Source: a virus. From it: a stretch of DNA of 36,672 nt. A model generated the notes under the pieces. The model did not search any database, was not told the origin of the DNA, and saw nothing but the letters and a program-made list of their open reading frames with translations. Each line of letters starts with the position of its first letter. Positions within the stretch are counted from its first letter, which is position 1. The translations under genes and the position numbers were made by a program. The DNA is taken from positions 1-36,672 of the IMG/VR virus record IMGVR_UViG_3300032116_000634; one strand, given 5' to 3'. Below, in pieces: positions 87-12,787 of the stretch.

Positions 87-692
87 TTATTCACCGTCCT
101 TTTCGGTCTGCTCAATCGCATACGCCACACATTTGGTGACCAGCGACACCCAGCGCTCGGGCATGGAATCCAAGGTGCCACTCACGTCGGTCTGCCCACG
201 GAGTTCCGCATACTTTTGCAGGTACTCAAATTCCTCCTGCGTGATTACGCCACCCATCAACCCCAACGACACCGCCGATGCAAGCATCCGTGACACAGCC
301 ACCGATTCCCTGGCGGACTTGTGCATCACATGGACGATGTATTCGTAGAAGTTCATCGGCAGGTCGTGGTTCTCGCCGTCATATTCGTGGGTGTCGGGAT
401 TCGTGCCAGACACAATCACCACATCGCCACGAAGTTCACGTCCAAACAGTGTGGACGCAGTGGCATTGAACGGCAAGTCCAAAATCAGCCCCTCGTCGTG
501 GATGTATCCGACCATCACGAACGACGACATGTCGTCCTCGTTGACGGCTCGCATGGTGACGGCATCAAACACACCGCCAACCTTGGATTGGATTTCGTCC
601 ACAGTGGAAGCGTTGCTTCCACCCAACAGGAACGTATATGGTTCCTGGGCAATATCGGCAGGTAACACTGCCGCCATTGTCATTCCGTACAT
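87..692 (-). CDS. DUF3846-like protein
   Basis: 201 residues. Roughly residues 45-95 resemble the DUF3846 fold common in phage and plasmid early regions: an acidic stretch, GYIHDEGLILDLPFN, then a GDVVIVSG ending. The remaining 100 residues are mostly helical and unassigned. The function of DUF3846 proteins is unknown. The start at 692 follows a strong AGGAGGT site, which is itself folded into a hairpin (696-710) just downstream of a hammerhead ribozyme (722-784). Translation may therefore depend on opening that hairpin or on RNA cleavage. The family assignment rests on pattern recall only. Confidence 0.7.
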   Translation of the reverse strand: MYGMTMAAVLPADIAQEPYTFLLGGSNASTVDEIQSKVGGVFDAVTMRAVNEDDMSSFVMVGYIHDEGLILDLPFNATASTLFGRELRGDVVIVSGTNPDTHEYDGENHDLPMNFYEYIVHVMHKSARESVAVSRMLASAVSLGLMGGVITQEEFEYLQKYAELRGQTDVSGTLDSMPERWVSLVTKCVAYAIEQTEKDGE

Positions 693-695
693 TAC

Positions 696-710
696 ACACC
701 TCCTAGGTGT
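696..710 (-). promoter_or_regulatory. Hairpin trapping the ribosome binding site
   Basis: On the minus strand ACACCT pairs with AGGTGT around an AGG loop, so the AGGAGGT Shine-Dalgarno of the gene starting at 692 is half loop, half stem. The same architecture at 4027-4041 has CAACCT pairing with AGGTTG. The outer pairs differ but stay complementary, which supports a selected RNA hairpin. Confidence 0.7.
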
Positions 711-721
711 AAGTCTGTGCT

Positions 722-784
722 GGACTCGTCAGCACGAGCATTTACTCGTGGACACGGGGAAGCGGATTCCCCCGTGTTTCGTCC
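722..784 (-). ncRNA. Hammerhead ribozyme, type II (copy 1)
   Basis: All core elements are present in order on the minus strand: helix II 5' strand GGAC (784-781), GAAA, helix III CACGGGG/CCCCGTG closed by a loop, the A15.1-U16.1 pair, C17, helix I CACGAG/CTCGTG with loop TAAATG, the core CTGACGA, and helix II 3' strand GTCC (725-722). Helix II is the open helix, which defines type II. Predicted cleavage is 3' of GTC, between bases 751 and 750. The first G of GGAC is the last base of the TAG stop of the gene at 784-1068. The 3' product would begin 58 nt upstream of the start codon at 692. Confidence 0.93.
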
Positions 785-1068
785 TAGAAAGGGACTCGCT
801 CAATGATTTGGGTGTCAATATGGACAACCTCGGACATGAGTTCCGCCCAATCGTCATCCTGCATCCAATCCTCGTACTCGTCCTCCGCCATCTCCAACAG
901 GTACTGTGTACCCGCAGCCGACAGACGCACAGCGCCACCCAAACTCGGGTGACCCTCCTGGACAAGCAACGTGCCATCATCCAGCGATGCAGGAATCACG
1001 ACACGTTTCCGTACGGGGACGTGAACCACCACGTCAATCTCAACTTCGTATTCGTTTACAACATTCAT
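784..1068 (-). CDS. Hypothetical acidic protein
   Basis: 94 residues, unrecognised. It starts with an alternating hydrophobic stretch (YEVEIDVVVHVPVRKRVVIP) that suggests beta strands. A strongly acidic segment around EMAEDEYEDWMQDDDW follows. The ATG at 1068 follows GGAGGT at a normal distance (GGAGGTTAGGTCATG). Its TAG stop is the first element of hammerhead copy 1, so the end of this gene and the ribozyme are fused. A promoter-like TTGACA lies about 50 nt upstream. Confidence 0.75.
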   Translation of the reverse strand: MNVVNEYEVEIDVVVHVPVRKRVVIPASLDDGTLLVQEGHPSLGGAVRLSAAGTQYLLEMAEDEYEDWMQDDDWAELMSEVVHIDTQIIERVPF

Positions 1069-2728: not shown

Positions 2729-4021
2729 TCACAAAGTGATGCCAGCGAGAATCTTCTCACGTTGGTCAGCCGTCGCACCCTTCAGGACGCGCATCTCCAT
2801 GGCATCAGCCATGGACAACCCAGCCAGGATGAGTTTCGCACCACTGACGGTGGCACGGGGTGACACAATCACCCGCAACCCATGTTCAGCGACATTGCGA
2901 CGTGCCCCAAGCACCGCTGTATACCAGCGCTTAGCCGTCGCCTCGTCCAGTCCGACCGAATTCAGCATATGCTGTTCCAGGTCGGTGTCCAAGTCCACTG
3001 GCACCATGGCGAACCTGTCCAGAAACGCCTTGTCAATCGGATTCCGACCAACATATTCGGCAGTGGCACCGTTCCCAAACGTGTTCGCTGCTGCCATCGC
3101 AACGAACCCCTCATGTCGGCGCACCATCCCATCGGGGAATGCCATCACACCGTTCGCCAGTGCCGAATTCAGCACATTCAGAACGTTCGGATTACCGTTG
3201 TCCACCTCATCCAACAGGAACACGCCACCATGCTCAAAAACCTCACGGAACGGAGTGCGCACCGTTTTCCCACTGGCATCCGTGAACCCCACAAGCGACG
3301 CTTCCGACGTTTGTGCAGTGACCGACTTGGATGCGAACGACAAGCCCAAGGCTTGCGCCACATTCTCAGCGATAGTGGATTTTCCAGTGCCAGCAGCACC
3401 GACCATATAGACATGCTCACCGATGCCGACCGCTTTCACGATGTCGTCAAACCGTGCATGCTGCTTCCCGTGCAGTTTCACAGTCGGACGCTGTGCGATG
3501 GTGATATGCCGAACCTGGGGTGCCACGTTGGCAATCATATTCGTCACTTCGTGACGGAACCCCGTGAACGTTTCCGAAACCGAATCGTCAACGATTCGGC
3601 GCACCTTGTCAGCGTCAATCGCCGCCTCATATTCAGACAGTGCAGTGTTCACTGCATCGGTCACGATTCCCGTGACGATGGAATCCAACCCACCAACCGA
3701 CGGTGCCACCTTAGTGGCAACAGGGGCGACGACAGGTCCCGACACCGTAGGTGCAGTCGTTGTCGTTGCAACCTGCGGTTCAGCGGTTGACGTGAACCTG
3801 CAAGCCTGACGAATTGCCTGCAGCAATTCCAGACGGCTGAAATGCATCGGCGGACGACCGACGAATTGCACCTTGGCTCGCTTCGCAAGGGCAATTAGTT
3901 CCACCTTGGTCAGTGCATTCCATCCCACAGGGATGGATTGGATGACCCCGTTCACAGTCAGTATGACCGTTTCATCGTGGGAATTCATAGAGTGAATTCC
4001 CCGTGCTTTTTGTGCGGACAT
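2729..4021 (-). CDS. AAA+ ATPase, MoxR/CbbQ type
   Basis: 430 residues. The N-terminal 180 residues are a variable helical region with a Pro/Val/Thr linker. The AAA+ core follows: Walker A GAAGTGKST (about residue 215), Walker B VFLLDEVD (about 275), sensor-1 region AANTFG (about 315) and arginine-finger region DKAFLDRF (about 335). The family couples ATP hydrolysis to remodelling of protein complexes, usually with a vWA partner, here the next gene. The start at 4021 follows an AGGAGGT site trapped in a hairpin and lies about 60 nt downstream of the cleavage site of hammerhead copy 2. Its role in the phage is unknown. Confidence 0.88.
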   Translation of the reverse strand: MSAQKARGIHSMNSHDETVILTVNGVIQSIPVGWNALTKVELIALAKRAKVQFVGRPPMHFSRLELLQAIRQACRFTSTAEPQVATTTTAPTVSGPVVAPVATKVAPSVGGLDSIVTGIVTDAVNTALSEYEAAIDADKVRRIVDDSVSETFTGFRHEVTNMIANVAPQVRHITIAQRPTVKLHGKQHARFDDIVKAVGIGEHVYMVGAAGTGKSTIAENVAQALGLSFASKSVTAQTSEASLVGFTDASGKTVRTPFREVFEHGGVFLLDEVDNGNPNVLNVLNSALANGVMAFPDGMVRRHEGFVAMAAANTFGNGATAEYVGRNPIDKAFLDRFAMVPVDLDTDLEQHMLNSVGLDEATAKRWYTAVLGARRNVAEHGLRVIVSPRATVSGAKLILAGLSMADAMEMRVLKGATADQREKILAGITL

Positions 4022-4026
4022 AGCAA

Positions 4027-4041
4027 CAACCTCCTAGGTTG
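4027..4041 (-). promoter_or_regulatory. Hairpin trapping the ribosome binding site
   Basis: Minus strand CAACCT pairs with AGGTTG around loop AGG, burying the AGGAGGT site of the ATPase gene. It is the counterpart of 696-710 with compensating base changes. Both hairpins begin 11 nt after the end of a hammerhead ribozyme. Confidence 0.7.
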
Positions 4042-4052
4042 CAAGTCAATCT

Positions 4053-4111
4053 GGACTCATCAGGTACCGTTTCACGGTACGACACGGCACCAACGGTGCC
4101 GTGTTTCGTCC
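4053..4111 (-). ncRNA. Hammerhead ribozyme, type II (copy 2)
   Basis: Minus-strand order: helix II GGAC (4111-4108), GAAA, helix III CACGGCACC/GGTGCCGTG with loop GTT, the A15.1-U16.1 pair, C17, helix I GTACCGT/ACGGTAC with loop GAA, core CTGATGA, and helix II GTCC (4056-4053). Every required core base is present. Predicted cleavage is between 4081 and 4080. As in copy 1, the TAG stop of the upstream gene supplies the first G. Helices I and III differ in sequence from copy 1 but keep pairing. Confidence 0.93.
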
Positions 4112-4290
4112 TACTTTGCTTCGCAAGCAGCCAAAAACTTCTCACGGTCAAACCGTGCATTATCTGCAACGAAAACGTCGCACAAATGCTCAGCCACCCA
4201 ACGAACAGTCTCCTGTTCGTTCACATGCTGGCTCATGCTCATGACCGATGCCAAAGCATCGGCAATTGCCACATAATCTTTCCGCGTCAT
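4111..4290 (-). CDS. Small conserved phage protein (MTRKDY type)
   Basis: 59 residues, MTRKDYVAIADALASVMSMS..., mainly helical. The N-terminal MTRKDY/F pattern recurs in many short phage proteins of unknown function. The ATG at 4290 follows GGAGGT at a normal distance; the site sits in a hairpin (4292-4306). The TAG stop overlaps the first base of hammerhead copy 2. The gene lies directly after the structured RNA region, so its message may carry that RNA as a leader. Confidence 0.8.
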   Translation of the reverse strand: MTRKDYVAIADALASVMSMSQHVNEQETVRWVAEHLCDVFVADNARFDREKFLAACEAK

Positions 4291-6715: not shown

Positions 6716-7150
6716 ATGGAAAATAACTTGTTGGACGACCGCCAGGAAAAATATTTGCAGTGGCTGTGCTTGCCGCAGCAGTTGCGTGAACCTTCCTCCA
6801 AGGAAAAGTACGCTGCCACTAACGGTGTTGATGTCACCACTTTGCGCAGGTGGGAGAAGAAGCCGCACTTTCGTGCGGAATGGGACCGTCGTGTAACAGA
6901 CCTGCAGGGTTCGCCTGAGCGAACCCAACGGCTACTGGATGCGTTGTATGATGCGGCTTTGGGCGGCGACAACAAAGCAGCCCAACTATATCTCCAGGCG
7001 ACCAACAGGTTTGCCCCAACGCAAATTAAGGTTGAGCACACCAAGGCGTTGGCAGAAATCTCGGATGAGGATTTGGACCAGTTGATTCGGGAAACTGTTG
7101 TCCAGGAGAAGCGGGAACGGGACCAGCGGGGGGAACTGCCCCGCCTATAA
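6716..7150 (+). CDS. terS: Terminase small subunit
   Basis: 144 residues. The N-terminal half has a helix-turn-helix layout typical of phage small terminases (KEKYAATNGVDVTTLRRWEKKPHF), followed by a helical oligomerisation segment (RLLDALYDAALGGDNKAAQLY) and a charged C-terminus. The small subunit recognises phage DNA and hands it to the large subunit (10741-12336). The ATG at 6716 is preceded by an in-frame GTG at 6713; both lie at the edge of a CACCC-CTA-GGGTG hairpin and no clear Shine-Dalgarno is visible. It is the first gene of the rightward block. Confidence 0.82.
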   Translation: MENNLLDDRQEKYLQWLCLPQQLREPSSKEKYAATNGVDVTTLRRWEKKPHFRAEWDRRVTDLQGSPERTQRLLDALYDAALGGDNKAAQLYLQATNRFAPTQIKVEHTKALAEISDEDLDQLIRETVVQEKRERDQRGELPRL

Positions 7151-7296
7151 TGAGTAATCTAATAGAGTGCCCTGTCTGCGGATGCGAATATCCGCCTGTG
7201 GCTACTCGTTGGCTTTGCCCAGAATGTAAACATAAAGACACCTGCTGCGAAGGAGAACCTGCTAAATTCAGGGACTACGATGACGACAATCAATGA
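7150..7296 (+). CDS. Small zinc-finger-like protein
   Basis: 48 residues. MSNLIECPVCGCEY, then WLCPECKHKDTCCEGEP: two CxxC pairs about 20 residues apart, which would bind one zinc. The start overlaps the preceding TAA by one base (TAATG) and the end overlaps the next gene by 17 nt, so it is a coupled operon member. Function is unknown; DNA or protein binding near packaging is only a guess. Confidence 0.7.
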   Translation: MSNLIECPVCGCEYPPVATRWLCPECKHKDTCCEGEPAKFRDYDDDNQ

Positions 7297-7567
7297 CGCA
7301 ATGTTCACCGCTCTAAAGGTGCTGCACCCTGAAGCGGGCGCAACACCCACGTTGGGTGACTTGCTGTATTTGGAGAACTTGTCGCCGCGTCTTGGTTCCT
7401 ACGAGTATTATGCAGCGGTTGTCGGCAACATCGGCTCATGGTCCGATGTTGCTTTGGAATATTGGACCGACCCCGACTATGTAGCCACCAACTTGGAGTT
7501 GGAGAATGGGAACGACATGCTCTTAGAGGACGGGGGATTTATTCTTTTGGAGGCTGGTAATGGCTGA
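7280..7567 (+). CDS. Hypothetical virion-associated protein
   Basis: 95 residues. The N-terminal half is helical (MTTINDAMFTALKVLHPEAG, GDLLYLENL). The C-terminus has the repeated LELENGNDMLLEDGGFILLE pattern, which I recognise from short phage tail-fibre-like proteins. The ATG at 7280 lies inside the preceding gene and its end overlaps the next by 8 nt. Given its neighbours, a structural role is likely but not shown. Confidence 0.7.
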   Translation: MTTINDAMFTALKVLHPEAGATPTLGDLLYLENLSPRLGSYEYYAAVVGNIGSWSDVALEYWTDPDYVATNLELENGNDMLLEDGGFILLEAGNG

Positions 7568-7751
7568 TAAGAAAATTACCGAACTGACCGCGTTGACCAC
7601 GTTGGCGAACGAAGATTTGTTTGTTGTCGTTGATGACCCGTCTGGTACGGCTGTGACAAAGAAGATTACGGCTGCTACACTGTTGGCTGCGGTACCCGCA
7701 TCTCCGCCTGACTCAGACCAGGCTATTATCGCGGCATCATTATTCGCATAA
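7560..7751 (+). CDS. Tail-fibre-type N-terminal module
   Basis: 63 residues. The segment KKITELTALTTLANEDLFVVVDDPSGTAVTKKITAATLL is a recurrent module at the N-termini of phage tail-fibre and appendage proteins in environmental phages. Here it stands alone, without the long distal domain usually attached, so it may be an anchor that assembles with the separate glycine-rich proteins downstream. It overlaps the previous gene by 8 nt. Confidence 0.7.
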   Translation: MADKKITELTALTTLANEDLFVVVDDPSGTAVTKKITAATLLAAVPASPPDSDQAIIAASLFA

Positions 7752-7776
7752 GGAACAACCCCCACTAGGAGTAGAT

Positions 7777-8139
7777 ATGGCAACTTTCAGCAAACTCGTT
7801 CTCAGCGGTTCAACCGATGGCAAAGCCGTCAAGGTTGCTGCTACGGCAACCCCTGGCACGACAATCCACACGGGTTCCACCACGGCAACAACCGTTGACG
7901 AAGTATGGTTGTATGCCCAGAACACGGACACGACTGCCCGCAAGTTGACGATTGAGTGGGGTGGCACTTCCAGCCCTGATGACTTGATTGAGGTTACCAT
8001 TCAGCCCGAGGCTGGATTGGTTGCGATTGTTCCTGGTTTCCCGATTAAGGGCAATGCAAGCCCGTTGGTTGTTCGTGCGTTTGCCGCGACGGCTAACGTT
8101 ATTACTATTCACGGGTTCGTTAACCGTATTACGGTGTAA
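7777..8139 (+). CDS. Beta-rich structural protein
   Basis: 120 residues, mostly alternating beta pattern (KLVLSGSTDGKAVKVAATAT, DEVWLYAQNTDTTARKLTIEWG, PEAGLVAIVPGFPIKGNAS, VITIHGFVNRITV). I recall similar small proteins in aquatic phage contigs beside tail genes, with no established function. It is likely a virion component (tail or head decoration). A good site, CTAGGAG, precedes the ATG at 7777. Confidence 0.7.
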   Translation: MATFSKLVLSGSTDGKAVKVAATATPGTTIHTGSTTATTVDEVWLYAQNTDTTARKLTIEWGGTSSPDDLIEVTIQPEAGLVAIVPGFPIKGNASPLVVRAFAATANVITIHGFVNRITV

Positions 8140-8142
8140 CCA

Positions 8143-9015
8143 ATGGCTTCGGCAAGAAGGCAGTTGGGTTACGTTTCATCCCTGATTACACAGGGTGTGC
8201 CATTGATGACTTATGGTACCGCTACGGGTGGTGTTGGTTCGCCTACTGCTGTAACGATTAGCAGCATCGACTATCAGTATCTCACCTTCACGAGCACGGG
8301 AACGCTGACAATCACGAAGGCTGGACTGTTTGACGTTCTGCTTTGTGGCGGTGGCGGTGGCGGTGGCTCCGTTCCGCAGGCGAACAATCGCGGTGGCGGC
8401 GGTGGTGCTGGCGGTATGGTGCGTGAAATCGTCTATCTGGATGCCAACGTCACCGTGACTGTCGGCGGGGGTGGAGCAGCCGTCAGTCTCGGTTCTGGTT
8501 CAACGATTGGAGGAACGTCACCAAGCGCAACTGTGGACAACATCAGCGCACTCGGCGGTGGATGGGGTGGTTATCGCACAGGGGATAACAGCCTCAGACC
8601 GTCTGCTGGTGGTTGTGGCGGTGGCGGTGGCGGCTCGCAGACTGGTACAACAGGTGCGGTGTCTATCGGCGCACAAGGTTTCGGTGGAGCAGACGAAGCA
8701 AGTAGCATCGGTGGTGGCGGTGGTGGTGCTGGTGCCGCTGGTTCTGGTGGCAACGGTGGAGCAGGTATTGACGTTGCAGGATTCATCGGCGGTTCCGCAC
8801 TATTCAAGTGCGGTGGCGGTGGCGGTGGAGCAGTGACGACCCCAGGAACAGGTGGGTCATCCATCGGCGGCAACGGTGGCAACAATGCGAATGGTTCTGC
8901 CGCTAGTGCGAACACGGCTTCTGGTGGTGGCGGTGCGAGCGACAATGCTGGCAACACGGGTCGCGTTGGTGGTGCTGGTGGTTCGGGAATCGTTTACATA
9001 AGGTGGCGCGTATGA
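8143..9015 (+). CDS. Glycine-rich tail/adhesin protein 1
   Basis: 290 residues. N-terminal RQLGYVSSLITQGVPLMTYG is followed by a beta segment (YLTFTSTGTLTITKAGLFDVLLCGG). About 200 residues rich in Gly runs (GGGGGG, GGNGGAG, GGSSIGGNGGN) end with GGSGIVYIRWRV. This matches glycine-rich phage tail proteins in which Gly repeats pack as a polyglycine-II sandwich, as in T4-like gp38 adhesins. A role in host-receptor binding is inferred. It overlaps the next gene by ATGA, and that gene is a diverged paralogue. Confidence 0.78.
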   Translation: MASARRQLGYVSSLITQGVPLMTYGTATGGVGSPTAVTISSIDYQYLTFTSTGTLTITKAGLFDVLLCGGGGGGGSVPQANNRGGGGGAGGMVREIVYLDANVTVTVGGGGAAVSLGSGSTIGGTSPSATVDNISALGGGWGGYRTGDNSLRPSAGGCGGGGGGSQTGTTGAVSIGAQGFGGADEASSIGGGGGGAGAAGSGGNGGAGIDVAGFIGGSALFKCGGGGGGAVTTPGTGGSSIGGNGGNNANGSAASANTASGGGGASDNAGNTGRVGGAGGSGIVYIRWRV

Positions 9016-9824
9016 CACGCAGTTACATGGGGTATGTTTCGTCGCTCACGACGAACACAATCCCAATCGCTACGACACTGAATGTGGGATACTTGCTCGT
9101 CGCAGGTGGTGGCGGTGGTGCTTTCTCAAATGTTTCTGGTGGCGGTGGTGGTGGCGGTGGAATGCTTACCGATACTGGGATAGTCGCTGCTGGGATTACA
9201 TACACAGTCACTGTTGGTGCTGGTGGCTCTAACTCAGCGCAGAATGGGCGCAGTGGTACACCGTCTGCATTTCTTCAGAGCGTAATGGGTGGTGGCGGTG
9301 GTGCTTCGTCGTATGACGGTGCGATGGCTGGTGGAAACGGTGGCTCTGGTGGCGGTGGAACTCGCTCAGGTGGTGGCGGTGATGGTGTTGCTGGACAAGG
9401 CAATGCTGGTGGTTCCTCAAATGCCACTACTAATGCTGGTGGTGGTGGCGGCAAGGGTAGCACTGGCGGTAACGGAAGCGGGACAACTGGCGGTGCGGGT
9501 GGTTCAGCATCCACGAACGACTACACGGGGACTACACGCTCGTTTTCTGGTGGTGGTGGTGGTGGTGGTACTGGTTCTAATGGTGCTGGGGGAACGAATG
9601 CAGGAAGCGCGCCTGCTGGTAGTGCTACTGCCAACTTCGGTGGTGGTGGCGGTGGTGGCAATGGCTCTGCTGGGAATGGTGGGTCTGGTCGTGTCGTCAT
9701 TCGTGCATTGACAGCAGACATCGCTTCGTTTACCATTACTACAACTGGCACTGTATCTACTGGAACGACTGGCAGTTACACATACTGGGATTACACAACA
9801 TCAGGCACATTCGTGGTAGCCTAA
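9012..9824 (+). CDS. Glycine-rich tail/adhesin protein 2
   Basis: 270 residues from the ATG at 9012, which overlaps the previous stop; an in-frame GTG at 9003 is less likely. The start RSYMGYVSSLTTNTIPIATTLN and the closing GGSGRVVIRALTADI parallel those of the gene before, so the pair is a tandem duplication. The core is about 190 residues of Gly-rich sequence. Unlike its partner it has a Thr/Ser-rich C-terminal extension (SFTITTTGTVSTGTTGSYTY). A likely adhesin or tail-tip component. Confidence 0.78.
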   Translation: MTRSYMGYVSSLTTNTIPIATTLNVGYLLVAGGGGGAFSNVSGGGGGGGGMLTDTGIVAAGITYTVTVGAGGSNSAQNGRSGTPSAFLQSVMGGGGGASSYDGAMAGGNGGSGGGGTRSGGGGDGVAGQGNAGGSSNATTNAGGGGGKGSTGGNGSGTTGGAGGSASTNDYTGTTRSFSGGGGGGGTGSNGAGGTNAGSAPAGSATANFGGGGGGGNGSAGNGGSGRVVIRALTADIASFTITTTGTVSTGTTGSYTYWDYTTSGTFVVA

Positions 9825-9834
9825 GGAGAAGAAC

Positions 9835-10095
9835 ATGGCACATTTCGCACAAGTCAATGACAGCAACGTGGTTCAGCAGGTCATCGTCGTATCCAACGAC
9901 GACTGTGGCGGTGGGGACTTCCCCGCCAGTGAGCCTGTCGGTCAGGCGTTTATTGCGTCGTTGGGTTTGACGGGAACGTGGAAGCAGACTTCGTACAACG
10001 GCAACTTCCGTGGACGTTACGCTGGTATCGGTATGACGTATGATGCGGGACTTGATGAGTTCGTCGCACCGCCTGTTCCCGAGGAGACTGAGTGA
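9835..10095 (+). CDS. Conserved aquatic-phage structural-region protein
   Basis: 86 residues. The pattern MAHFAQVNDSNVVQQVIVVS, DDCGGGDFPASEPVGQAFIASLGL, WKQTSYNGNFRGRYAGIGMTYD is a family I recognise in many marine and freshwater phages, usually next to tail-fibre genes, with no proven function. AAGGAG precedes the ATG. It overlaps the next gene by 4 nt. Confidence 0.78.
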   Translation: MAHFAQVNDSNVVQQVIVVSNDDCGGGDFPASEPVGQAFIASLGLTGTWKQTSYNGNFRGRYAGIGMTYDAGLDEFVAPPVPEETE

Positions 10096-10298
10096 AGCGC
10101 ATCCAGCCTCAGCATATTGAAATGCTGAAGTCATATTTGCGTTCGGCGTTGGCGGCTGTCGTCGCCGTCATGGCAACCGTTGACTTTACGTTCCAGGATG
10201 TTCTGAAGGCGTTTGTTGCAGCGTTGATTCCTCCCGTGTTGCGGTGGATTAACCCGAAAGACCCTGCTTTCGGTCGGGGTGCCCAACCTGTAGAATGA
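10092..10298 (+). CDS. Holin-like membrane protein
   Basis: 68 residues from GTG 10092, overlapping the preceding stop. Hydrophobic stretches (residues 15-29 SYLRSALAAVVAVMA and 35-52 VLKAFVAALIPPVLRW) and a charged C-terminus fit a small holin. The lysozyme gene follows within 45 nt, which supports a lysis role: holins form membrane holes that release or activate the endolysin. No motif is diagnostic, so it remains inference. Confidence 0.62.
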   Translation: MKRIQPQHIEMLKSYLRSALAAVVAVMATVDFTFQDVLKAFVAALIPPVLRWINPKDPAFGRGAQPVE

Positions 10299-10301
10299 TG
10301 C

Positions 10302-10318
10302 CAACCCCGCAGGGGTTG
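10302..10318 (+). terminator. GC hairpin before the lysozyme gene
   Basis: CAACCCC pairs with GGGGTTG around GCA. The following ACATTCATTT is only weakly T-rich, so it may be a weak terminator, an attenuator or a stability hairpin between the holin-like and lysozyme genes. Confidence 0.4.
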
Positions 10319-10342
10319 ACATTCATTTCCCTAGGAGGCTAG

Positions 10343-10741
10343 ATGAGTTATATCATTGCGGCTGTGCTTATGGTGTTTGGAATCCCCGCCCCCGAAAACA
10401 AACCCAGGGTTTGTGTGGAGTATCATTTCGCGTTGGACAGACTAGGTTTCTCCAGCGACGACAAGCAGATGGCTCACAGGGTTATGCACCGCGAGTCGCG
10501 CTGCAACCCGCTGGTGACGAATCGCACGGACCCAAACGGCGGGTCACTAGGCTTGTTCCAGATTAATCGTTTCTGGTGTTTGCCGAACCGTTACAGTCCG
10601 CAGGGCTGGTTGCAAGCCCAGGGCATTTTGGATGAGTGTGAGGATTTGTATGACCCGATGGTGAATGTTCGGGCGATGAAGGCTATTTTTGATTATTCGG
10701 TTGAGGCGAATGGTAACGGCTGGCAGCCGTGGGGCATGTGA
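10343..10741 (+). CDS. Lysozyme / lytic transglycosylase (SLT-like)
   Basis: 132 residues. A short hydrophobic N-terminus (MSYIIAAVLMVFGIPAP) could be a signal or anchor. The lysozyme-fold core shows HRESRCNP with the presumed catalytic Glu, then GGSLGLFQINRFW, the usual GxxGLxQ motif of soluble lytic transglycosylases. It would cleave the glycan strands of peptidoglycan, either at lysis or at DNA entry. It follows a holin-like gene, favouring lysis. AGGAGG lies upstream of the ATG. The TGA overlaps the start of the large terminase. Confidence 0.85.
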   Translation: MSYIIAAVLMVFGIPAPENKPRVCVEYHFALDRLGFSSDDKQMAHRVMHRESRCNPLVTNRTDPNGGSLGLFQINRFWCLPNRYSPQGWLQAQGILDECEDLYDPMVNVRAMKAIFDYSVEANGNGWQPWGM

Positions 10742-12336
10742 TGCAACTGGATGAACTTCTCCAGGAGCGCGAGTGGCGTTTGTGCCGCGGCAAGGACGAC
10801 TCATTAGAGGCGCAGTTGGCAGCCTTTCAGCATTTCTGTGCAAACTATTGGTATATCAAGCACCCCTCTAAGGGGCGTATTAGGTTTGAGTTGCGTCCCG
10901 CTCAGGTGGAAACCGTCAAGACGTGGATGGGTGAACGTTATACGGTTGTCTTGAAGGCTCGTCAGATTGGGTTTTCTACGTTGGCTGCGGCGTATGCGTT
11001 TTGGTTGACCTATTTTTTTGCTGACAGGTTTATTATTATGTTGTCGCGCACTGAGCGCGAAGCCATGAAGTTGTTGGCAAAGTCTAAGTACGGTTTCAGG
11101 TTTCTGCCGTTTTGGTTCCGTGAACGCGGACCCAAGCAGGTGACGGACCACCAGTTGAAGATGGTGTTTGATAATGAGTCCGCGATTGAGTCGCTGCCCA
11201 GCGGCTCTGACCCTGCTCGTGGTGAGTCGGTGTATGCGGTGTTTGTGGACGAGTGGGCGTTCTTGCCCAACCCCGAAGAGGCTTGGGCTTCTATTGAGCC
11301 GATTGCGGACGTTGGTGGACGTGTCCACGGCTTGTCCACCGCCAATGGTTCAGGAAACTTTTTTCACCAACTGTGGGTTGGCTCGCAAACTGGTACTAAC
11401 AAGTTCAGGGGAATTTTTTACCCGTGGTCCGCTGACGGTGAGCGTGGCGAAGAGTGGTACGACGACAAAGCCAAGAATATGCAGTCCTGGCAGTTGCATC
11501 AAGAGTACCCGCGCTTTCCTGAGGAAGCGTTTATCAAGTCGGGTAACCCTGTGTTTGATATTGACATGCTGGACAGTATGGATATGGTTGAACCTGACCG
11601 CGGCTATTTGCATGTGTACGCGAATAACGTGTCCGAGTTCCGACCTACCCAGGATGGTGAACTGGCGATTTGGGAGTTCCCCGACCCTGAGGCTGTGTAT
11701 GTGTTAGGTGCTGACGTTGCCGAAGGCTTGCAGCATGGCGACTATAGTTCCGCCCATATTGTGAATGCCTCCAAGGGGTTTGTCGCCGCACATTGGCACG
11801 GGCATATTGAACCTGACCTGTTTGGCGAAATGATGGCACAGTTGGGCTGGTGGTACAACGGTGCCCTGGTCGGTATTGAGAACAACAACCATGGGTTGAC
11901 CGCCCTAAAGGCGGCTCAACGTATTGGCTACAAGAATCTGTATCGTCAGCGACGGCTTGGGCATGTCCGCCCCGAGGCGACGGAGATGTTGGGTTGGCGT
12001 ACCTCAGCCAGTTCCAAGCCTCTAATGATTGACGAACTTGCAGCCGCCCTCAGGACGAATGACTTGGAGGTGTATTGCGACCGTACGATTGCGGAGTTGC
12101 GTACCTTTGTCCGTAAGGCGAACGGGAAGATGGCTGGCAGCCCCCACGACGACAGGACTATTAGTTTGGCGATTGGTAACCAGATGCTGAAGTATGTATG
12201 GCTGCCCGAATATCGGGGCGCTGCCCCGATTCCCCGCAACAGTTTGGCGTGGTGGGAACAGTTTTTGACGGGTAACGACGGAATGGAACGTATCCCGATT
12301 GGTTCTTATAATGTTCGCTCCAGGATGGGTAGGTGA
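10741..12336 (+). CDS. terL: Terminase large subunit
   Basis: 531 residues. ATPase domain: Walker A-like VVLKARQIGFST (about residue 60), Walker B VYAVFVDEWAFL (about 160), and a coupling motif near HGLSTANGSG. Nuclease domain: LGADVAEG (about 320), VGIENNNHG and HDDRTISLAIG (about 470) carry the acidic residues of the RNase H-like fold. It packages DNA into procapsids through the portal (12787-14538). The ATG at 10741 overlaps the preceding TGA. The small subunit gene is unusually distant (about 3.6 kb upstream), with tail-fibre and lysis genes between. Confidence 0.95.
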   Translation: MQLDELLQEREWRLCRGKDDSLEAQLAAFQHFCANYWYIKHPSKGRIRFELRPAQVETVKTWMGERYTVVLKARQIGFSTLAAAYAFWLTYFFADRFIIMLSRTEREAMKLLAKSKYGFRFLPFWFRERGPKQVTDHQLKMVFDNESAIESLPSGSDPARGESVYAVFVDEWAFLPNPEEAWASIEPIADVGGRVHGLSTANGSGNFFHQLWVGSQTGTNKFRGIFYPWSADGERGEEWYDDKAKNMQSWQLHQEYPRFPEEAFIKSGNPVFDIDMLDSMDMVEPDRGYLHVYANNVSEFRPTQDGELAIWEFPDPEAVYVLGADVAEGLQHGDYSSAHIVNASKGFVAAHWHGHIEPDLFGEMMAQLGWWYNGALVGIENNNHGLTALKAAQRIGYKNLYRQRRLGHVRPEATEMLGWRTSASSKPLMIDELAAALRTNDLEVYCDRTIAELRTFVRKANGKMAGSPHDDRTISLAIGNQMLKYVWLPEYRGAAPIPRNSLAWWEQFLTGNDGMERIPIGSYNVRSRMGR

Positions 12337-12339
12337 TTG

Positions 12340-12354
12340 GGAACAATCTTCCCA
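12340..12354 (+). promoter_or_regulatory. Small hairpin with GGGAACA
   Basis: GGGAA-CAATC-TTCCC lies just after the large terminase stop and before the zinc-ribbon gene. It contains GGGAACA, which recurs in other intergenic gaps of the late block. Confidence 0.35.
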
Positions 12355-12361
12355 TATTTGT

Positions 12362-12586
12362 ATGGATTTGACCTGTAACCAGTGTGGGAAAGACTTTTAT
12401 GTGGACGAACTGCCCCGCCGAGGGGCGGTTTGCTTCGGCTGCCACATTAAAAGTGTTCGTTTGGGTTTCACCCAAGGCAAAGAAGAGTTCCACGGTCCGA
12501 CCATTAACGAACGCAAGGAAAAGATTATTTCTGACGCAAAGATTAACGGCTATAACCCTGAGCCTGTTGGGACTCGTTGGGTGTAA
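12362..12586 (+). CDS. Zinc-ribbon phage protein
   Basis: 74 residues. MDLTCNQCGKDFYVDELPRR, then AVCFGCHIKSVRLGFTQGKEEFHG: paired Cys-xx-Cys groups that would bind one zinc, then a helical tail ending YNPEPVGTRWV. I recognise this as a common protein next to terminase and portal genes in aquatic phages, function unknown. The ATG at 12362 has no clear ribosome site; a start at 12311 inside the terminase gene is possible. Confidence 0.72.
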   Translation: MDLTCNQCGKDFYVDELPRRGAVCFGCHIKSVRLGFTQGKEEFHGPTINERKEKIISDAKINGYNPEPVGTRWV

Positions 12587-12589
12587 CGT

Positions 12590-12787
12590 ATGGTGGAGGT
12601 GTGGGTTCCGATTACGGTCGCAATTATTACGGGACCGATTGTCGTGGTTTTGCAGAAACTGCGCAAAGAGAATTCGGAACAGCACGGGGAAGGTCGGGCG
12701 TTAATTCAGCAGGTTGCCGACAAGGTGGACGCTGTGGGTACTAAGTTGGATGAACATATCGGTTGGCATAAAGGTCGGGGTAAATAA
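12590..12787 (+). CDS. Small single-pass membrane protein
   Basis: 65 residues. One hydrophobic segment (VPITVAIITGPIVVVLQKL, residues 6-24) is followed by a charged coiled-coil-like tail (LIQQVADKVDAVGTKLDEHIGWH). Similar proteins sit between terminase and portal in related phages; a holin or spanin role has been suggested for such shapes but is not shown. It overlaps the portal start by one base. Confidence 0.65.
   Translation: MVEVWVPITVAIITGPIVVVLQKLRKENSEQHGEGRALIQQVADKVDAVGTKLDEHIGWHKGRGK

Follow-up and report, generated by a model that had tools for sequence, protein, structure and literature searches.

Processing of phage transcripts by hammerhead ribozymes has been a known kind of arrangement since 2011, when Perreault et al. 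proposed that clustered type II hammerheads in prophages process long phage transcripts (PMC3088659). According to the accessible text of that report, type II hammerheads are self-cleaving in vitro, and a triple set from A. tumefaciens cleaves in E. coli. The same text describes HHphage of the haloviruses HF1 and HF2, which precedes a phage helicase gene, 13 nt from its start, and has a mapped transcript end near the ribozyme's cleavage site. Theta ribozymes of gut phages are also self-cleaving phage RNAs, but in the accessible part of their description they have an HDV-like fold and are tied to tRNAs (PMC10879173). Why, biologically, ribozymes occur in association with phage genes was still described as unknown in a 2023 paper (PMC10085705).

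The window analysed here, 36,672 bases from an uncultured phage, comprises a complete IMG/VR record. Its plus strand carries P22-like portal, terminase and major head genes, its minus strand two type II hammerheads (Table 1). As far as the accessible text of PMC3088659 describes the earlier hammerheads, those found here share with them the core, the open stem II and the occurrence of several copies flanking single phage genes, but differ in the exact spacing of stop codon, ribozyme and ribosome site (SD). The 2011 consensus in that text also has loop I paired with the tail in a pseudoknot, whereas our set, nearly all with a 4-bp stem II, has no excess of such pairing (49 matches against 53.6 in shuffled sequences). 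HHphage, as described there, likewise stands ahead of a phage gene but differs by its variant core and archaeal host. The Rfam model RF02276 (Hammerhead_II) represents the same ribozyme class and matches some copies in two of the phage loci (L088 and L103); its stem II is 2 bp, in contrast to 4 bp in the window copies.

Two type II hammerheads in the window

The initial annotation had recognized a complete hammerhead ahead of the ATPase gene, and its coordinates proved right. On the minus strand, stem II of copy 2 is formed by GGAC (4111-4108) and GTCC (4056-4053), which pair over 4 bp and enclose GAA (4107-4105), helix III (4104-4082, 10 bp), H17 (C4081), helix I (4080-4064, 7 bp) and CTGATGA (4063-4057). 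All core nucleotides are present (C3 U4 G5 A6 N7 G8 A9, G12 A13 A14, A15.1-U16.1 and H17) together with three helices, of which I and III are closed by loops and stem II is open, the type II permutation. By its sequence 4111-4053 is a complete type II hammerhead, and the RNA very probably cuts itself, with cleavage predicted between 4081 and 4080. Copy 1 has the same anatomy, as the annotation had also proposed, with predicted cleavage after C751, and both copies share the stem II GGAC/GTCC and the cleavage site GUC.

Each copy begins on the last base of the preceding ORF's TAG (786-784 for copy 1), so that, as first noted from the sequence, the G of the stop ahead of copy 2 is also the first base of stem II. 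Copy 2 sits precisely at a gene junction: a 59-aa ORF ends with its TAG on one side, and the ribosome site on the other side belongs to the ATPase gene, whose ATG is at 4021-4019 on the minus strand; the distance from ribozyme end to the next ATG is 31 nt for copy 2 and 29 nt for copy 1. An annotated spacing of 11 nt has to be corrected: in copy 2, GTCC and the ACCT hairpin are 13 nt apart. Among the neighbouring genes, the 94-aa ORF had no family match and the DUF3846-like protein had no match in isolated phages. Elsewhere on the minus strand, an element of ~130 nt (4470-4343) has tRNA-like ends, GGTACAA ... GGTGG-TTCGACT-CCACC-TGTACCA, with acceptor-like pairing and a T arm; ARAGORN calls neither tRNA nor tmRNA there, and folding of the element gave a z-score of just -1.4.

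Table 1. Features around the two hammerheads of the window
Feature	Position	Strand	Details
Type II hammerhead, copy 2	4053..4111	minus	covariance model E 7.6e-16
Type II hammerhead, copy 1	722..784	minus	covariance model E 4.3e-15
Predicted alternative hairpin, copy 2	4043..4058	minus	GAGTC 4058-4054 with tail GACTT 4047-4043
Predicted alternative hairpin, copy 1	711..727	minus	GAGTC 727-723 with GACTT 715-711
Ribosome-site hairpin, copy 2	4026..4042	minus	GCAACCT-AGG-AGGTTGT; holds SD AGGAGG 4035-4030
Ribosome-site hairpin, copy 1	694..710	minus	ACACCT-AGG-AGGTGT
59-aa ORF (MTRKDYVAIADALA...)	4111..4290	minus	cistron upstream of copy 2; TAG 4113-4111
AAA+ ATPase, MoxR/CbbQ-like, AAA_5, phrog_249	2729..4021	minus	cistron downstream of copy 2
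94-aa ORF	784..1068	minus	upstream of copy 1
DUF3846-like gene, phrog_3777	87..692	minus	cistron after copy 1; Pfam E 3.8e-4, below the Pfam cut-off

An Rfam search of the window, at the gathering cut-off and with E up to 5, reported neither copy, and both fall short of the RF02276 gathering cut-off of 37 bits. A covariance model was made from 46 hammerheads of other loci with the window excluded. Its matches in the window were exactly copies 2 and 1, at 58.0 and 55.6 bits, and the reversed pattern had no match in the window. The 4-bp stem II subclass looks mainly viral, because the pattern GGACGAAA-N25-55-CTGANGAGTCC occurred in at least 120 IMG/VR stretches and a near-identical one in only 52 stretches of 84,980 bacterial and archaeal genomes.

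Helices I and III were both pairable in 257 of 298 distinct pattern matches, which had not been selected for pairing, against 1.15 (maximum 3) when the interiors were shuffled. Both-sided change was found in 14 of the 17 pairs of the model alignment, and 99.3% of cells were paired against 64.5% after shuffling; as pairing had been a criterion for including hammerheads in this set, the 298 unselected matches are the cleaner test. The hammerhead helices thus show compensatory change, and these statistics demonstrate the ribozyme fold at the level of sequence. The evidence that the 5' flank lengthens stem II was weak (36 against 23.6 permuted at 5 bp, maximum 38).

Placement at gene junctions and at orthologous sites

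Placement was examined for 318 nonredundant phage hammerheads with enough flanking DNA. An ORF stop lay within 60 nt upstream of 286 of them, at a median of 3 nt from stem II, and 311 stood ahead of an ORF start, at a median of 24 nt after the ribozyme. Both a stop before and a start after were present for 281 of the 318 (88%), compared with 10% of random positions, and in 63 of these hammerheads the last base of the stop is a stem II base. Several copies at gene junctions, as in clustered phage hammerheads flanking genes, were also found, with at least two hammerheads in 102 of 361 loci. These counts establish the junction placement statistically and agree with the earlier suggestion of a widespread phage pattern indicative of transcript processing.

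Streptomyces phage Yara (L579), which was isolated and annotated by others, carries eight hammerheads in 6 kb (6919-12754), seven of them in annotated gene gaps and none annotated as a ribozyme. The annotated start of Yara CDS 88 (6887) is probably wrong, because it runs through a hammerhead. Unannotated copies were also seen in Streptomyces phage Wentworth, and one phage stretch (L161) holds eleven nonredundant hammerheads.

A hammerhead lies directly 5' of the ATPase gene in five phages (the window, L123, L124, L280 and L076), whose ATPases are 42-56% identical, and upstream of the DUF3846-like gene in seven other phages at 37-45% identity. At these orthologous sites the helix sequences have changed yet remain paired, which demonstrates retention of the ribozyme and supports the proposal that the helices are under selection; the association with the DUF3846-like gene likewise held in diverged phages. 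L123 and L124 have an extra hammerhead copy with the stem II GAAC/GTTC. The link with the ATPase gene stood as far as these five phages go but not as a specific one, because the genes downstream of hammerheads are very diverse between phages. Most other ATPase relatives found have no hammerhead directly in front of the gene, and the ribozyme is therefore dispensable for it. The stretches examined of two further phages with a relative of the ATPase or the DUF7192 gene, Gordonia phage Kudefre and Mycobacterium phage Faith1, contained no hammerhead.

By inspection, some ribozyme-free ATPase leaders hold other hairpins and -10-like sequences, and for this reason the ATPase message of some of these relatives may have a start of its own in place of the ribozyme. 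In L125, L127, L128 and L131, a conserved two-hairpin leader, TTGAATACGATGGTGGACGAGC...GCTCGTCATTAGATGTCCGTGAACGGACAGCC, with compensatory differences lies upstream of the ATPase start (4001) and occupies the spot that the hammerhead has in other relatives. L132 and L134-L139 carry before the ATPase gene a conserved hairpin of variable length followed by a TGACCATAA(T)CGCCC-like stretch. Neither leader matched Rfam when the first was searched in L125, L127 and L131 and the second in L132, L135 and L139.

A tail complementary to the catalytic strand

The first cue to an additional element was that tails after stem II often read ATCAG where the core reads CTGAT, and GTCAG where it reads CTGAC. 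The complement of CTGAN was present in 55 of 351 nonredundant tails, against 3.5 in shuffled tails, and the reversed word in none. This prediction was written down before we analysed the tails of a further 214 nonredundant copies, most of which have other stems, and 18 of the 214 carried the complement against 0.9 shuffled. Over 546 copies, N7 and its partner were T/A in 48, C/G in 24, T/G in 4, C/A in 2 and other combinations in 10, with only 6 swapped combinations (Fisher p=7e-14). Since such sequence counts are non-independent events, we also took one copy per locus (p=3e-11) and counted within phages, where L010, L016, L103, L375, L438 and L441 each have a T/A copy as well as a C/G copy. 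N7 is N in the type II consensus and of no matter for catalysis (PMC3088659), therefore its covariation with the tail points to pairing. In addition, AG follows the stem, completing TCAG, in 99 of 145 stems ending in TC compared with 64 of 353 ending in CC (p=2e-26), and in 52/52 copies with the stem GGTC and N7=C.

In a second form of the tail, GAG and the first stem II strand bases are the pairing partner. The complement of GAGTC was found in 30 of 173 copies with GTCC stems (5.5 shuffled) and that of GAGAC in 5 of 105 with GACC stems (0.7 shuffled), whereas the mismatched controls were not enriched (GAGTC in GACC stems, 2 against 2.6; GAGAC in GTCC stems, 0 against 1.6). Both window copies show this second form. 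The tails of the ATPase orthologues pair in differing registers: the window and L076 have GACTT, L280 has ATCAG, and L123 and L124 have CATCGG, which pairs with CTGATG and includes one G-U. Either form occurs in 197 of the 546 hammerheads, about a third and some of them by chance, and about two thirds have no detectable core-complementary tail. These statistics demonstrate a covarying complementarity of tail and core sequences.

The tail helix cannot coexist with the active fold, because it uses core and/or stem II bases; in copy 2, GAGTC belongs partly to the core and partly to stem II, and its pairing with the tail excludes both. The alternative hairpins of the window are weak, at -2.9 and -2.5 kcal/mol compared with -6.7 for the stem II duplex. 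No tail complementary to the catalytic strand is described in the accessible text of PMC3088659, and our literature search, a weak one with subscription papers mostly outside it, found no core-complementary hammerhead tail. The exact junction geometry and the covarying tail appear to be new, as do the missing loop I-tail pseudoknot of the abundant 4-bp stem II subclass and the near-complete lack of Rfam matches to it in the loci tested.

Proposed mechanism and alternatives

The best explanation of these comparisons, and in our judgement a probable one, is that the junction hammerhead cuts the transcript once and the tail then refolds the catalytic strand. Copy 2 would cut the leftward polycistronic transcript between the upstream stop and the next ribosome site. 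Helix III, closed as a hairpin and bearing a 2',3'-cyclic phosphate, would then form the 3' end of the upstream mRNA. The downstream mRNA would carry a 5'-hydroxyl on its helix I hairpin, so that the ATPase message would have its own defined and structured beginning roughly 60 nt ahead of the ATG. After the cut, the 4-bp stem II would be the sole link between the two RNAs, and capture of the core/stem II strand by the tail (GAGUC with GACUU) would free the upstream RNA, block re-ligation and leave a hairpin beside the ribosome site. Because the window hairpins are weak relative to stem II, it may take dissociation, or a ribosome passing through, to bring this displacement about. We infer that cleavage takes place in the cell, that it affects the stability and translation of both messages, and that cutting, refolding and release follow in this order. 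More tentative, and just short of what we would call likely, is the wider proposal that a large subclass of phage hammerheads forms a three-step one-way mRNA splitter, which would cut, refold through the covarying tail and release without re-ligation.

The tail might instead be a switch that regulates cleavage: acting before the cut, it would pair with the catalytic strand and keep the ribozyme inactive unless translation, a protein or some condition opens it, a reading that we consider rather unlikely. The same covariation and the mutual exclusion of tail helix and active core would fit it equally, the minimum-energy fold of uncut copy 2 contains the GAGUC/GACUU hairpin alongside helices I and III, and a terminating ribosome would cover stem II, which the stop overlaps. 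However, the ribozyme, being transcribed ahead of the tail, could be the first to fold, we saw no site for a ligand or protein, and several phages mix tailed and tail-less copies. The sequence data fit either order of events, and refolding after the cut is preferred because the ribozyme is transcribed before the tail.

A hammerhead that simply rides along at gene junctions, passively or selfishly and without benefit to the phage, is improbable. The diversity of downstream genes, the many relatives without the ribozyme and the multiple copies per phage would suit a passenger, but the helices, the junction placement and the tail complementarity have been kept by compensatory change over large divergence, orthologous sites included.

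The initial annotation had joined ribozyme and ribosome-site hairpin into one cassette. The ACCT-AGG-AGGT hairpin is indeed present at both copies; similar hairpins, and longer ones, enclose the SD at ribozyme-free genes of the window (start 2679, ATTTTGACT-GGA-GGTCAAAAT; start 4290, AATGACT-GGA-GGTCATT), and the ribozyme-free relatives still have one before the ATPase gene. SD hairpins were found at 7 of 17 leftward starts of the window (2.4 expected), at 49 of 166 starts in its relatives (23.1 expected) and at 18 of 168 starts in unrelated hammerhead phages (14.6 expected). We also observed SDs within hairpins at minus-strand starts 1649 and 36566 and in L007, L024, L104 and L220; such hairpins, frequent in the window's phage group, reach up to 10 bp and extend to the start codon. 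Since the SD hairpin also precedes ribozyme-free genes and the ATPase gene of ribozyme-free relatives, it is, from these comparisons, a separate trait of the window's phage group and not part of the ribozyme. That the two form a single device tuning downstream translation, as their adjacency at both window copies had suggested, is very doubtful and the cassette was rejected, each element occurring without the other, including ribozymes with no clear hairpin in L123 and L124 and in the unrelated phages.

The role of hammerheads in phages has been an open question since 2011. Their placement at gene junctions in hundreds of phages and an element that contradicts the active fold turn this question into testable steps, and the isolated Streptomyces phages Yara and Wentworth offer unannotated copies for such tests, while the Rfam model misses the 4-bp stem II subclass. 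If the proposed mechanism is true, a reversible ribozyme would become a one-way splitter of phage mRNA.
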